A DNA stretch of 64,000 bases from Amorphus orientalis (GTDB lineage: Bacteria; Pseudomonadota; Alphaproteobacteria; Rhizobiales; Amorphaceae), in assembly GCF_030814015.1 (NCBI RefSeq), contig NZ_JAUSUL010000003.1, forward strand, positions 248,001-312,000. The letters run 5' to 3'. A program made the position numbers and the translations under genes. The first letter of the stretch is position 1. Each line of letters opens with the position of its first letter. The notes beneath the pieces were generated by a model. The model was not told the origin of the DNA. It made no database searches and saw nothing but the letters and a program-made list of their open reading frames with translations. Below are positions 25,476-51,772 of the stretch, in pieces.

Positions 25476-26318
25476 ATGGACGCATCACCCGACACGAACG
25501 CCGACCAGATCGCCCACTGGAACGGGGCTGGCGCCGGCGCCTGGATCGAAGCCCAGAGCACGATGGACGCCATGTTCGCAGGCCTCGTGCCCCTCCTGAC
25601 CGAGACGATCCTGGCGGGCTTTTCCGGCCAGGTTCTGGATGTGGGCTGCGGCACCGGCGCCACGTCCCTTGCCGCCGCGCGGAAACTTGACGGCACGGGC
25701 CACTGTCTCGGTCTCGACGTCTCCACGCCGATGGTGGAGATGGCGCGCGCCCGCGCCGCCGAGGTCGGTCTCCCGGCGTCGTTCGTGGTCGGAGATGCCC
25801 AGATCCATCCATTCGAGCCCGACACGTTTGACCACATCGTGTCGCGCTTCGGCGTGATGTTCTTCGAGGATCCCGTCGCCGCCTTCGCCAATCTCCGGTC
25901 AGGCGCCAAAGCCGGCGCGGCGCTGCGCTTCGCCGCCTGGCGCAGCCCGTCGGAAAATGCCTTCATGACCACGGCGACCCGGGCCGCCAAGCCCTATCTG
26001 CCGGAACAGCCCGCGCACGATCCCGACGCACCCGGCCAGTTCGCCTTCGCCGACGGCGACAAGGTCCGCCGGATCCTGACGGACGCCGGCTGGCGCGATA
26101 TCGAGGGCCGGCCGATCGACGTGGAGTGCCGCTTTCCGGCCGCCGATCTCGATCTCTTTCTCACCCGGCTCGGTCCGCTGGGCCGCTATCTCGGCGACAT
26201 GAACGAGGACACCCGTGCCAAGGTCATCGAGACGGTCCGGGCGGCCTTCGAGCCCTTCGTCCACGGCGACGAGATCCGCTACACCGCGGCTTGCTGGCTG
26301 GTGGAGGCGAGGTCGTAA
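25476..26318 (+). CDS. Class I SAM-dependent methyltransferase
   Basis: 280 aa from the ATG at 25476. Rossmann-like methyltransferase: motif I VLDVGCGTGATSL (about residues 52-64), LGLDVSTPMVEMAR, and FDHIVSRFGVMFFEDP as motif IV. It is divergent from a MerR regulator with a 31-base promoter between them, so it is very likely that regulator's target. The acceptor is unknown; a metal, metalloid or small thiol compound would fit a MerR-controlled gene. Confidence 0.82.
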   Translation: MDASPDTNADQIAHWNGAGAGAWIEAQSTMDAMFAGLVPLLTETILAGFSGQVLDVGCGTGATSLAAARKLDGTGHCLGLDVSTPMVEMARARAAEVGLPASFVVGDAQIHPFEPDTFDHIVSRFGVMFFEDPVAAFANLRSGAKAGAALRFAAWRSPSENAFMTTATRAAKPYLPEQPAHDPDAPGQFAFADGDKVRRILTDAGWRDIEGRPIDVECRFPAADLDLFLTRLGPLGRYLGDMNEDTRAKVIETVRAAFEPFVHGDEIRYTAACWLVEARS

Positions 26319-26401
26319 GGGGCGGCGCGAAGCGACCGGGACATCAGGACTGCACGCCCGCCCCAGGGTCTGCCGAACCGATACGACGTGGCTCTCCCCA
26401 C

Positions 26402-26572
26402 CCGCTCATTCCCGCGAAAGCGGGAATCCATCATGAATCTGAGAAACTTGAGGGCATCTGACCGGGGCACGGAGGGGCCGGCCGATCCGTTTGACCGTCC
26501 CGCCGAACGGCGTCGCCTGTGCAGAATTTGCCGCGGCGCCCCATGGATTCCCGCTTTCGCGGGAATGAGCGG
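26402..26572. repeat. Pair of 30-bp inverted repeats (REPIN-like)
   Basis: The 30 bases at 26402-26431 are the exact reverse complement of 26543-26572, separated by 111 bases. Each arm itself contains the palindrome ATTCCCGC-GAAA-GCGGGAAT. This is the layout of a REP doublet (BIME/REPIN). The central segment has no supported gene. No RAYT transposase is present in the window. It lies between a convergent methyltransferase gene and metH. Confidence 0.75.
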
Positions 26573-26607
26573 AATTTGGAGCGGGCGCCAGGCGCCGCCC
26601 GCAGAAG

Positions 26608-26649
26608 CGAAAAACCCGCCTCCTTTCGGAGGCGGGCCTTTCGTTTTTC
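26608..26649. terminator. Bidirectional terminator between the methyltransferase gene and metH
   Basis: CCCGCCTCC (26615-26623) pairs perfectly with GGAGGCGGG (26628-26636) around TTTC. A run of A lies on the left (26610-26614) and TTTCGTTTTTC on the right, so it can end transcripts arriving from either side. Confidence 0.88.
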
Positions 26650-26700
26650 TTCACGCAATCCCGGACGGAAAACCGGTTCCCAATTTTCCCGGGAGTGCTT

Positions 26701-30429
<3,729 letters not shown>

Positions 30430-30464
30430 TGGAAAGGTTTCCCTATCTCGTGTTGAACCCGGCC

Positions 30465-30531
30465 GCGCACGGACGTGCGCAGCCGGCTCTGTCATTGTCT
30501 GGTCTGCGACTGGTCGGCTCCCTTGCGGGAG
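30465..30531 (-). promoter_or_regulatory. Two hairpins in the metF-metH spacer
   Basis: GCGCAC (30465-30470) pairs with GTGCGC (30475-30480), and CTCCC (30518-30522) with GGGAG (30527-30531) over a 4-base loop. They lie in the 107-base gap between metF and metH and may set relative expression or stabilise the transcript. I do not recognise a SAM, SAH or cobalamin riboswitch here. Confidence 0.35.
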
Positions 30532-30536
30532 GCGGC

Positions 30537-31445
30537 TCAGGCGGCCTCCGAAACGGGCTCCTCGCCGCGCATGCCGAGAAGGTGGCACAGGGCGTAGACG
30601 AGCTCCGCTCGGTTCATCGTGTAGAAGTGGAAGTCGGTGAACCCGCGCTGCTCCAGATCCAGCACCTGCTCGGCGGCCACGGCGGCAGCGACCAGACGGC
30701 GCGTGTCGGGATCGTCCTCGAGCCCCTCGAACCGGTGCTCCAGCGTGTCGGGGATCGACGCCCCGCAGGAGCCGGCGAAGCGGGCGACCTGCGGGAAGCT
30801 GTGCACCGGCAGGATGCCCGGAATGACCGGAAGCGTCACGCCGGCTTTGGCGACCCGCTCCATGTAGGCTTCGAACAGATCGTTGTCGAAGAAGAACTGG
30901 GTGATCGCCCGGGCGGCACCGGCGTCGGCCTTGCGCTTCAGGTTGTCGATATCCTCGTCCCAGTCGACGCTGTCGGGATGGCGCTCCGGATAGGCGGAGA
31001 CGGACACCTCGAAATCGGCCAGGCGGCGGATTCCGGCGGTCAGCTCGGCGCCGTTGGCATAGCCGCCCGGATGGGGCTCGTAGGCGGTGCCGGCGCCGGC
31101 CGGCGGATCACCGCGCAGCGCGACGATGTGGCGGATGCCGGCGTTCCAGTAGTCCTGGATCACCTCGTCCACCTCTTCCCGGGTCGCACCGACGCAGGTC
31201 AGATGCGCCGCCGGCTTGAGCGAGGTCTCGTCGATGATGCGTTTCACCGTCCGGTGGGTCCGCTCGCGGGTCGATCCACCGGCACCGTAGGTCACCGACA
31301 CGAAGCGCGGGTTCAAGGGTTCAAGCCGCTGGATCGACGCCCACAGAGTCTCCTCCATCTGCGCGTTCTTCGGCGGGAAGAACTCGAAGGAGGCGGAAAT
31401 CTTAGGCTGGCCGGCCTTGGGGTGGCTGAGATCGGTCTCGGTCAT
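30537..31445 (-). CDS. metF: Methylenetetrahydrofolate reductase
   Basis: 302 aa from the ATG at 31445. TIM-barrel flavoprotein: FEFFPPKN with the catalytic Glu, [22 protein letters not shown], and IVALRGDPP, all family motifs. It reduces methylene-THF to methyl-THF, the substrate of MetH next door. Its ATG overlaps the stop of the regulator gene (31442-31445), so regulator, metF and metH form one translationally linked group. Confidence 0.96.
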
Positions 31446-32458
31446 CCGGTGGTCTCCAGTCTTTCGGTTGTTTCGGCGTCGGCGGTCTGCAAGCGCGTGT
31501 CGCGACCGAGCCAAAGGGTTACAGTCAGGTCGGCGGGAGAGGCCCGTTCGGGAGACAGATCCTCCACCACCATTGTCTCGAGCCCGGCCTGGGCAAGCCA
31601 GGCGGACACCTGGTCATGCGAGAAGCCGAGCCGTCGATGGGCGTGCTCGGAGCGCAGGAACTCCAGGTCGTGCGGCGCGAAGTCGACCACGAGCAATCGC
31701 CCGCCGGGCCGCAAAACGCGTGCCGCTTCCTCGATCGCGCTCGCCGGATCCTCCAGGTAGTGAAGGACCTGGTGCAGCGTCACGAGGTCGTAGGACTCCT
31801 GCGGCATGGCGAGCGCGAAGATGTCGCCCTGGCGGACCCGCGCATGTTGGATCTGCGCGTTCGCCAGGTTCATCCGCGCCACCGAAAGCATGGCGGCGCT
31901 GGCGTCGACCCCGAGCCCGCGCTCGTAGAGGTCCTGAAACAGTTCCAGCATCCGGCCGGTGCCGGTGCCGAGATCGAGCATCGAGCGGAACGGAACGGCG
32001 CCCACAAGGCGCCGCATCGCTGCTTCGACGGCATCTTCCGGCACGTGCAGCGTCCGGATCGCGTCCCACGCGTGGGCGTTCGCCGCAAAGTAGGCTGCGG
32101 CCGCTTCGGCGTGGGCGCGCTGGACCGCCGCAAGGCGCTCCCTGTCGCGCGCCAGAACCGGGTCGGACGGATCCAGCTGCAGGAGCAGCTGATCGGCCAG
32201 ACGCGAGCCGGAATCCACTTCCGTCAGACGGTAGTAGGCCCAGGCCCCTTCCGGAGCCCGGACGATCAGACCGGCATCGGTCAGGAGCTTGAGATGCCGC
32301 GAGATGCGCGGCTGACTCTGACCGAGGATCGTCGTCAGATCCTTGACCGTCAGGTCGGCCCCGGCCAGCAGCGCCAGAATGCGCAGGCGCGTGGGCTCGC
32401 CTGCGGCCCTAAGGCCGGCGACCAGCTGATCGAGACCGATCACACTGTCGACGATCAT
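31442..32458 (-). CDS. ArsR-family regulator fused to a SAM-dependent methyltransferase
   Basis: 338 aa from the ATG at 32458, which has AAGGAG nine bases upstream. A longer frame to 32578 would cover the palindromic operator and is unlikely. Residues 1-95 form an ArsR/SmtB winged HTH (GEPTRLRILALLAGADLTVK, ISRHLKLLTDAGLI). Residues 130-320 are a class I methyltransferase fold with LDLGTGTGRMLELF and VTLHQVLHYLEDP. The ArsR Cys metal sites are missing. ArsR-type methionine/SAM regulators are known from comparative genomics of proteobacteria, and its coupling to metF fits. Whether the methyltransferase domain catalyses or only senses SAM is unknown. Confidence 0.85.
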   Translation of the reverse strand: MIVDSVIGLDQLVAGLRAAGEPTRLRILALLAGADLTVKDLTTILGQSQPRISRHLKLLTDAGLIVRAPEGAWAYYRLTEVDSGSRLADQLLLQLDPSDPVLARDRERLAAVQRAHAEAAAAYFAANAHAWDAIRTLHVPEDAVEAAMRRLVGAVPFRSMLDLGTGTGRMLELFQDLYERGLGVDASAAMLSVARMNLANAQIQHARVRQGDIFALAMPQESYDLVTLHQVLHYLEDPASAIEEAARVLRPGGRLLVVDFAPHDLEFLRSEHAHRRLGFSHDQVSAWLAQAGLETMVVEDLSPERASPADLTVTLWLGRDTRLQTADAETTERLETTG

Positions 32459-32824
32459 TCCCACGATCTCCTTCTGCACCGCCGCCGGCGGCCGGAAAAT
32501 GCGATATAAAGATATCTTTATACGTTGAAGTCCGTCGTTGCAAGCGTTGCCGCCTCCCGACGGGGAAATTTCCCACATCGCTCCCGGCCGTCTTGCGGCC
32601 CGGCTACGGCCTTCCCGGGGGCATTGCCGCTGATGGCCCGCGCTTCACCGGCAGACCGGATGCGCTTGCCCGGACCAGGCTGTCGGAAGAAAGCGATCCG
32701 GCCGCCGCCGGCGCCCGTGGTTTGACACAGCCGAAGAGGTGCGGAAGCGTCTCATGGACGAAAGAACCGGCCCGATGTCCGTCCCAGCGGCCCCCGCACG
32801 CGAAAGACACGCGAAAGAGTTGAG
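32459..32824. other. Intergenic region between divergent genes
   Basis: 366 bases holding the regulator's ribosome binding site and the 18-bp palindrome (left third) and presumably promoters for both directions. Short frames in the right part show no recognisable protein. Confidence 0.5.
32505..32522. promoter_or_regulatory. 18-bp perfect palindrome, probable operator of the ArsR-met operon
   Basis: TATAAAGATATCTTTATA is its own reverse complement and lies 47-64 bases upstream of the regulator's start codon, in an AT-rich patch inside GC-rich DNA. A winged-HTH dimer site in this position suggests autoregulation and control of metF-metH. Operator function is inferred. Confidence 0.7.
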
Positions 32825-39778: not shown

Positions 39779-40522
39779 CTAGAGGGCTTCGGGCGCCCAT
39801 GGCGCCATTCGGCGGGCGAGCGCATCCATCGCCAGCCGCAGGGCGACCGCCATGGCCGCCAGCAGAACGAGGGCTGCGAACAGGACATCGGACTGGAGCC
39901 GCGCGTTGGCGTGCAGCATGACGAAGCCGAGCCCGGCGGAGGAGCCGACCCACTCGCCGACCACGGCGCCGATCGGAGCGACGGCGGCCGCGACCTTGAG
40001 ACCGGACAGGAGGCTCGGCAGTGCGGCTGGCACCCGGATCAGGGCGAGGGTCTGCAGCCGGCTGGCGCGGTTGAGACGCGCCAGATCCAGCAGTCCGGGA
40101 TCGGTCCGGGCCAGACCGTCATAGAAGGACGAGGCGACGGGGAAATAGATGATCAGCGTCGCCATCACGATCTTCGACGCGATGCCGTAGCCGAACCAGA
40201 GCACCAGAAGCGGCGCGATCGCGAACACCGGCAGCGCCTGGGTGGCGATCACCACCGGCAGGAGAAGCCGGCGAGCCGGCGGGAACGCGCTCATGGTGAG
40301 CGCGGTGGTGACGCCGCAGGTGACGCCGATCGCGAACCCGAGCAGGATCTCGCTCAGGGTCACGAGCGCGTTTTCGAACAGATAGCCGGACCGGGTCTGG
40401 AACGCGCCGGCCACATCCAGCGGCGACGGCAGGATGAAGGGCGGCAGCGCGAACAGGCGGATCGCCCCCTCCCAGAGCAGAAGGAGCGCCGCCGTCACCA
40501 GCAGGGCGCGCAGGACGACCAT
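39779..40522 (-). CDS. thiX: Thiamine-precursor-type ABC transporter permease (ThiX-like)
   Basis: 247 aa with about six membrane helices. Belongs to the BPD/SsuC-type permeases; the ATPase-contact loop reads DLARLNRASRLQTLALIRVPAALPSLLSGLKVAAAVAPIG. It should pair with ThiY and a missing ThiZ ATPase to import HMP or a degradation product of thiamine. It lies 174 bases downstream of a TPP riboswitch on the minus strand. Confidence 0.85.
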   Translation of the reverse strand: MVVLRALLVTAALLLLWEGAIRLFALPPFILPSPLDVAGAFQTRSGYLFENALVTLSEILLGFAIGVTCGVTTALTMSAFPPARRLLLPVVIATQALPVFAIAPLLVLWFGYGIASKIVMATLIIYFPVASSFYDGLARTDPGLLDLARLNRASRLQTLALIRVPAALPSLLSGLKVAAAVAPIGAVVGEWVGSSAGLGFVMLHANARLQSDVLFAALVLLAAMAVALRLAMDALARRMAPWAPEAL

Positions 40523-40696
40523 CCCGTCAGATCCGGCGCATACCCGAAAGACGGCAGGGACCGCAAAACGGCCGCCGGGGCTCCGGACGCGCAGGTCCGG
40601 CCGAGAAAGGGATCGAGAAGGAAAAACAGCGCATTGGATCCACCGTCCACGTCGTTGGAATCGGAAGATCCGGGGAATGACGAGCGGTCGGTGGTG

Positions 40697-40790
40697 TCCG
40701 TCCCTTCGCCGGTATGACCCGGATCAGGTTCAAAGGGTTCGGTACCCGGACGGCACCATCTCAGCTCCTTGACGGAGCACCCCTCGGAAC
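40697..40790 (-). promoter_or_regulatory. TPP riboswitch (THI element)
   Basis: Read on the minus strand: GAGGGGTGC, then GCTGAGATGG, ACCCTTTGAACCTGATCCGG and GTCATACCGGCGAAGGGA, the conserved core of the thiamine pyrophosphate aptamer. P1 closes as TCCG/CGGA at the ends. When TPP is bound it should lower expression of the transport genes downstream. The expression platform between 40523 and 40696 is not resolved by eye. Confidence 0.92.
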
Positions 40791-40857
40791 GCGGCAAGTG
40801 TTGCGCACTCGCCGCCGCGCCGCAACCCCCGCCGTCTCGTTTGCCTCGATCGCGGTG

Positions 40858-49879: not shown

Positions 49880-50497
49880 TCATGACTTCGACCGTACCGG
49901 CCTCGTGGCGTCGTCGGTCGCGTCCTGGTCGCCCGCGTCCGCGGACTGATCCGGCGGATCCGCCGGATAGAAGGTGTAGGAGAGCGTAATCGTGCCCACG
50001 TCGCCGGCCTCGTCGTCTGTGACCATGTCCGGATCCACGTAATAGGTGACCGTGATCCGGCGTTTTTCCGACGGGCCGAGCGGCTGCTGGGTGAAGCAGA
50101 AGCAGTCGAGCTTGGAAAAATACGGTCCGGCCGCGAACGGCGTGACGTTGAACACCGCGGTCGCGTTGGTCTCGCGCTCGGAGGTGTTCTCGATGATGTA
50201 CTCCGCCTCGACCACCTCGCCCATGCGCGCCGTAATGGAGCGTTCGACGGGCTTGAACGTCCAGGGCAGCCCCTTCCGGACGTTCGCGTCGAAGCGGACG
50301 GTAACCTCGCGATCGATCGGCTCCACAGGCTGCGCGCTGGCGAGCGAGGTGGTGCCGCCGTAGCCGGTCACCTGGCAGAAGATCTGATAGAGCGGGACGG
50401 CGGCATAGGCCGCACCCACCATGGCGCACACGAAGGCCAGGCAGACGACGGCGACGCGCACGTTGCCGTTCATGGATTTCCGTGTTCGCTCGCTCAT
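49880..50497 (-). CDS. cox11: Cytochrome c oxidase copper-insertion protein Cox11
   Basis: 205 aa from the ATG at 50497 with GAGAGGGA upstream; an ATG at 50527 lies 30 bases earlier inside the coxF gene. One N-terminal helix then a periplasmic beta domain with the copper-binding motif KLDCFCFTQQPLGP (C-F-C-F) and AAVPLYQIFCQVTGYGGTT. It delivers copper to the CuB site of subunit I. The tail is acidic (DQSADAGDQDATDD). Confidence 0.95.
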   Translation of the reverse strand: MSERTRKSMNGNVRVAVVCLAFVCAMVGAAYAAVPLYQIFCQVTGYGGTTSLASAQPVEPIDREVTVRFDANVRKGLPWTFKPVERSITARMGEVVEAEYIIENTSERETNATAVFNVTPFAAGPYFSKLDCFCFTQQPLGPSEKRRITVTYYVDPDMVTDDEAGDVGTITLSYTFYPADPPDQSADAGDQDATDDATRPVRSKS

Positions 50498-51752: not shown

Positions 51753-51772
51753 GCCGGCCCCGCGGGGCCGGC
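51753..51772. terminator. Perfect GC palindrome between ctaD and ctaB
   Basis: The 20 bases at 51753-51772 (GCCGGCCCCG and its mirror CGGGGCCGGC) are fully self-complementary. In the minus-strand transcript it forms a hairpin about 50 bases after the ctaD stop, followed by CTCTTCC. It may lower expression of the assembly genes relative to the structural subunits. Confidence 0.5.

Follow-up and report, generated by a model that had tools for sequence, protein, structure and literature searches.

What does a protein do that joins an ArsR-type DNA-binding domain to a methyltransferase fold and is encoded at the head of a methionine operon: does it sense a metabolite, catalyse a reaction, or both? 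We address this question for a locus of Amorphus orientalis that lies in a stretch of 64,000 nucleotides, here called the window (contig NZ_JAUSUL010000003.1, positions 248,001 to 312,000). Our analysis leads us to regard the protein, with high confidence, as SahR, the SAH-responsive switch of the ArsR family, which would bind a palindrome at its own gene as a homodimer, repress sahR-metF-metH and release the DNA on SAH. The family and its role in the control of methionine recycling are already known. What is placed under a known SAH switch here is a methionine operon that had gone unnamed, and the switch is present in 137 of the 150 genomes sampled from the order (strong regulator match, E below 1e-50; some match was found in 149).

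All three genes lie on the minus strand. The regulator (338 amino acids, 31442-32458), assigned as a sahR orthologue from its translation, Pfam and NCBIfam matches, ortholog alignments and a predicted model with a mean pLDDT of 88.7, consists of an ArsR-type winged-helix DNA-binding domain (HTH_5, PF01022, E 8.5e-14; residues 22-65, 32264-32395) joined to a class I methyltransferase fold, in which a SAM/SAH-binding domain (Methyltransf_11, PF08241, E 5.7e-26; residues 161-257, 31688-31978) holds the motif DLGTGTGR. Its N-terminus also matches the NCBIfam model NF033788 at 75.7 bits (cut-off 55). Next comes metF, methylenetetrahydrofolate reductase (30537-31445; TIGR00676, 338.1 bits, cut-off 293.7), with the Pfam domain MTHFR, followed by metH, cobalamin-dependent methionine synthase (26701-30429; TIGR02082, 1757.1 bits, cut-off 1010.85), with methionine synthase domains. 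A preliminary description made from the letters alone had proposed an ArsR-methyltransferase fusion heading metF-metH, with a regulator stop that overlaps metF by 4 bases, and both points are borne out: the overlap is the ATGA at 31442-31445, in which the stop TGA occupies 31442-31444 and the metF ATG begins at 31445.

The regulator's reading frame is open from 32578 in the list of open reading frames, and the ATG at 32458 appears the better start, being preceded by an AAGGAG ribosome-binding site (32468-32473, minus strand); many of the orthologue matches start near this ATG (query residues 41-50). For metH, the ATG at 30429, 107 nt past the metF stop, is more likely the start than the GTG at 30588 given in that list. 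By eye, the gap between metF and metH (30430-30536, minus strand) holds a GC-rich inverted repeat that lacks a run of T.

Upstream of the regulator, at 32505-32522 (no strand assigned), lies the candidate operator TATAAAGATATCTTTATA, a palindrome that had been noted earlier and is indeed perfect over its 18 bp. Its closeness to the regulator start also stands, with the distance corrected from 47 bases to 46 nt as measured from the ATG at 32458. Length alone does not make it notable, as base composition predicts 0.66 perfect 18-bp palindromes in a 64-kb window of 67% GC, and five of at least 18 bp were found. Two perfect 20-bp GC-rich palindromes occur at 49949-49968 and 51753-51772 of the window. 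The non-chance feature of the operator is its sequence, which recurs before ahcY. With up to three mismatches allowed, it occurs once in the window and in none of 100 shuffles, and throughout the organism's own genome (4.71 Mb in 13 contigs, 97% complete) the only second copy at this level is TATAAAGATTTCTTTATA (contig C3, position 327011), which carries one mismatch and lies 108 nt upstream of ahcY (TIGR00936, 607.8 bits, cut-off 497.6; the frame has at least 464 codons and runs off the end of the locus).

A scan of the genome for further copies near methionine genes, as had been proposed, thus succeeded for ahcY and failed for metK: the genome has two full metK genes (G000:C2:1200523-1201656 and G000:C4:100855-102000), both above the family cut-off, and no site at up to three mismatches lies near either. 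Neither metK locus has an Rfam match at the gathering score. By eye, roughly 290 nt upstream of the C2 copy of metK, there is a stretch four positions off a looser form of the pattern, and we did not count it. That looser form gave ten sites at two or three mismatches in the own genome as against 26 for a reversed control pattern, and we discarded these as additional operators. Among two-mismatch copies of the looser pattern, one (L006:1501-1516, G000:C3:372962) precedes a gcrA-like gene (172.2 bits to NF050816, whose cut-off is 280), at a mismatch level where the control pattern is commoner.

We also considered an RNA switch as the true regulator of sahR-metF-metH and rejected it, as the sole Rfam match in the window at the gathering score is a TPP riboswitch (40684-40794, minus strand, 81.1 bits); downstream of it is the permease frame of a binding-protein-dependent transporter (39779-40522, minus strand). 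The loci L040, L041, L002 and L008 gave no Rfam matches at that score. The genome holds one SAM_alpha riboswitch (RF00521; G000:C1:403656), which stands before an O-succinylhomoserine sulfhydrylase gene and so likewise precedes a methionine gene of the organism, but it is an RNA element and separate from the SahR targets.

If the palindrome is the regulator's operator, it should accompany the gene in relatives. We selected 139 orthologues as the best-scoring ones and not by random draw: 30 of 137 at the level of the order (own included), the best 80 of 591 named orthologues and 29 of the 93 others in the class sample, sets that may share species; one locus, L076, was kept although it has no start codon upstream of the aligned segment. 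The palindrome was found upstream of all 30 order-level orthologues with at least 15 of 18 bases identical (no shuffle control was run for this set), upstream of all 80 named orthologues (at least 15 bases in 78, 14 in two; 3 of 1600 shuffles got as far as 14), and upstream of all 29 class-level orthologues with at least 14 bases (at least 15 in 25; shuffles reached 14 in 1 of 580). Its absence upstream of orthologues had been named in the preliminary description as the observation that would speak against the proposal, and in these 139 best-scoring orthologues it is never absent. Within 1 kb downstream, and in the same orientation, a metF gene follows at 79 of the 80 named and at all 29 class-level loci. 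The three-gene operon sahR-metF-metH is not general, since metH follows metF in only 27 of the 80 named loci, in flanks of at most 3 kb.

Presence of the regulator also goes with presence of the site. In the order, 122 of the 137 genomes with the regulator contain a site versus 1 of the 13 without (Fisher p 1.2e-9), and the single regulator-less genome with a site, G123, is 56% complete; the sample holds 232 sites in total against 15 for the reversed pattern. The other 15 of the 137 have no site at up to two mismatches, with the regulator's own upstream region inspected in some of them. The same comparison is weaker at the level of the class, where 65 of 94 regulator-bearing genomes and 28 of 96 regulator-less ones contain a site, and a control pattern is hit in 7 and 31, respectively. 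Of the 96 regulator-less genomes, 16 are 2.3 Mb or larger and two of these 16 have a site, and we treat the sites in regulator-less genomes of the class as background, to which small genomes contribute much.

These properties agree with what has been published on SahR. The family was described in 2014 as SAH-responsive and occurs mostly in alpha- and delta-proteobacteria plus two gamma groups (Leyn et al. 2014, PMC4239095); its operator is given as a 20-bp palindrome and its core regulon as sahR, ahcY, metH, metH2, metF and metK (PMC4239095). In Ensifer aridi, SahR operators are predicted at sahR, ahcY, metH, metK and bhmT, and the sahR deletion strain showed the highest sahR expression (PMC8877191); the family is also named in PMC7950407 and PMC5343134. 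Like SahR as described in PMC4239095, the present protein combines an ArsR winged helix with a methyltransferase-related, sensor-like C-terminal domain and has a palindromic operator at its own gene, and the core targets ahcY, metH and metF are represented by operators before sahR-metF-metH and before ahcY. It departs from the description in that no operator was seen at either metK, and for this organism we infer both the effector and repression. The missing metK site is compatible with membership, since the published definition of a core target asks for regulation in over 70% of genomes and so allows single absences. The preliminary proposal that a fusion of DNA-binding and SAM/SAH-binding domains could set methionine flux therefore gains support from the published SahR description, from the operators at 139 orthologues and at ahcY, and from the co-occurrence of regulator and site.

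By analogy with the family, the homodimer would contact an 18-20 bp palindrome through its winged helices, and the anatomy of the sahR promoter, where the palindrome probably covers the -10 region, suggests that binding would shut off sahR-metF-metH. The C-terminal methyltransferase-fold domain would serve as the ligand pocket. In work from 2014 by Novichkov and colleagues, SAH reportedly acts on Desulfovibrio SahR as an effector that releases it from the DNA. By extension from Desulfovibrio, accumulating SAH would here occupy the pocket and take the repressor off the DNA, allowing production of MetF and MetH and, through the second site, of AhcY, after which SAH would be hydrolysed and homocysteine remethylated.

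The structure of the C-terminal half is central to whether the protein senses or catalyses. The predicted model (mean pLDDT as above) consists of the winged helix, a long helix at residues 100-134 and the class I methyltransferase fold, which matches class I methyltransferase chains with Z up to 22.0 (rmsd 2.8, 202 aligned residues); NodS, UbiG and RebM are among the close fold matches. In the best 50 of 1989 Foldseek matches, alignments along the whole chain (RdmB, Rv2258c and others) reached TM-scores of about 0.3-0.5 with rmsd 13-20; the VIA-align rows mainly span residues 67-322, so that neither kind of match tests the whole domain arrangement. Of the PDB chains found by sequence (best 60 of 85), none had a best-matching stretch that took in both domains. 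The motif I residues D162, G164 and G166 are identical in 109 of 109 relatives, and outside motif I the residues H229, H233, D259, H263, H274, R276 and G278 are each shared by 108 or 109 of them. This near-invariance, the intact SAM motif and the resemblance to NodS, UbiG and RebM could be taken as signs of a regulator whose fused domain also works as a methyltransferase on some unassigned substrate, a reading that we hold to be very unlikely. A sensor that has to distinguish SAH from SAM should be just as conserved, the operon and the regulon need no further enzyme, and the neighbourhood hints at no substrate.

An even less probable variant, which we give very little credence, has the protein both methylate arsenite and regulate its own gene, as reported for ArsR^M of Brevundimonas sp. 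M20. As(III)-binding cysteines are usual in ArsM, and the window protein has no cysteine and thus no cysteine-based metal or arsenic site of the ArsR/SmtB type. In the alignment of 110 sequences, 56 members are free of cysteine and none is conserved, the fullest column holding it in at most 27 and no column near window residue 140 or so, the counterpart of the reported C134, in as many as four. We take this conservation to argue against cysteine-based arsenic chemistry as a trait of the family, to judge by its sequences. Members outside the order do have more, 15 of 29 carrying two or more cysteines in the methyltransferase part, which leaves more room for arsenite methylation in Brevundimonas itself, and the report contrasts ArsR^M with cysteine-dependent As(III)-binding enzymes and does not rely on cysteine contacts alone (PMC10190100).

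The likeness to ArsR^M is nevertheless close. ArsR^M, described in 2023, is a fusion of the same architecture that heads the operon metRFHH, hence the same metF-metH operon head, binds its own promoter, which carries a palindrome, as reported from a gel shift, and was called an arsenite methyltransferase, with activity in an assay kit and higher tolerance of E. coli to arsenite reported (PMC10190100). Its SAM-binding residues H223, Q224, H227, F254, R263 and H268 (PMC10190100) correspond to H229, Q230, H233, F260, R269 and H274 of the window protein, with the numbering shifted by 6 throughout. It differs in its reported C134 (PMC10190100), set against the cysteine-free window protein, and its reported As(III) contacts point both ways: Q224 (our Q230) is kept in 105 of 109 relatives, and Y228 (our Y234) is F in 59 of 109. 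The genomic company of the family, metF at its genes and ahcY at its sites, also speaks against an arsenic role. Because the listed residues match at a constant offset, we infer from these and from the description that ArsR^M is probably the SahR of Brevundimonas sp. M20. The word SahR does not appear in the available text of PMC10190100, and none of the papers in the literature searched, as far as their text was available, uses both names, so that the literature carries two readings, SAH sensor and arsenite methyltransferase, of apparently one protein family. The arsRMC operon of PMC11868830 was considered as a further fusion and set aside, as it consists of separate genes in the text available. 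We regard the unlinked arsenic literature and the difference in promoter geometry set out below as small extras to the known SahR; neither this geometry nor the conflict over cysteines between ArsR^M and SahR was met in the literature searched, and either may be printed in Novichkov 2014 or in supplements.

There remains the identity of the ligand, as a methyltransferase fold can in principle bind either SAM or SAH. SAM has been proposed as effector for SamR of Xanthomonadales, a distant SahR homologue that likewise controls methionine genes and whose effector is left open in PMC4239095, and the same ligand could act here. We see little chance of this. SamR has a 24-bp palindrome of the type ATC-10 nt-GAT and a regulon that lacks ahcY according to PMC4239095, whereas the operator here is 18 bp long and of another type, and the second target is ahcY.

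For the SahR reading, the targets of sites elsewhere are informative. We examined 61 sites other than those at sahR, namely 60 hand-picked among the matches listed plus the own ahcY site, some genomes giving several, and asked by tblastn which gene starts within 400 nt past each. SAM-cycle-like genes did so at 53 of the 61: ahcY-like genes at 34 (64-100% identity, at 53-144 nt), metH-related genes at 14, metK-like genes at four and metF at one. The metH-related group comprises five MetH-like matches at 61-74% identity and nine distant ones at 29-31%, of which the one checked, L163, is a betaine-homocysteine methyltransferase. Eight sites received no assignment by tblastn. One of these eight, a perfect operator (L166, G127:C2:397374), is flanked by a formyltetrahydrofolate deformylase gene on one side and, on the other, by a frame similar to the first half of metE. 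At two sites with 16 of 18 bases (L162 and L171; G084:C10:21563 and G119:C1:476218) no methionine gene was found adjoining.

The position of the operator relative to the promoter appears to differ between the two main targets. After removal of near-identical flanks, the 139 sahR sites were reduced to 117 and the 34 ahcY sites to 30. Of the 117 sahR sites, 71 carry a TTG at precisely 21 nt before the palindrome, any other scanned offset giving at most seven and 200 rounds of shuffling at most 11; by set, it occurs in 69 of the 89 order-level and named sites and in 2 of the 28 class-level ones. In the window this TTG belongs to TTGCAA (32538-32543, minus strand), 15 bp upstream of the operator. 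An outer half-site of the operator was rejected as an explanation, the mirrored CAA being found in 0 of 117. Scans with the sigma-70 consensus gave no promoter near the operator and none in 26300-31500, and we assign the putative -35 from its position-locked conservation alone; given the usual spacer from TTGCAA, the -10 would then lie inside the operator.

At ahcY, 26 of 30 sites have a TTG within 8 nt past the palindrome (offsets 1-7) together with a TA-type -10 at a spacing of 16-18 nt, which is exactly 17 in 25 of them; this test required no more of the -10 than a correctly spaced TA, and agreement with TATAAT at four or more positions is seen in 18 of the 26. The same test passes 1.65% of shuffles and 5 of 117 sahR sites. 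TTG alone within 8 nt past the palindrome occurs at 43 of the 117 sahR sites as well, only five of these having the -10. Four of the 30 ahcY sites have no TTG within 8 nt, and none of the 30 has a TTG at -21. The ahcY promoter of the own genome reads TTGAAC-N17-TATACC.

Hence the operator appears to overlie the -10 region in the sahR promoter, whereas at ahcY (in the own genome, L002:1440-1518, G000:C3) it appears to adjoin the -35-like element on its upstream side, a non-classical position for a repressor. Repression at ahcY is plausible, because a dimer bound there would leave little room at the -35 and directly upstream of it. An unlikely alternative is that SahR works in two modes, the dimer repressing its own met operon from the -10 region but activating or modulating ahcY from 1-7 nt upstream of the -35; if true, the two halves of the SAM cycle would not simply be co-repressed. 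With the operator on opposite sides of the -35-like element at the two genes, the direction of control at ahcY becomes a direct experimental question. The sahR geometry recurs beyond sahR itself: of nine non-redundant sites whose assignment is to the MetH homocysteine domain, three show it.
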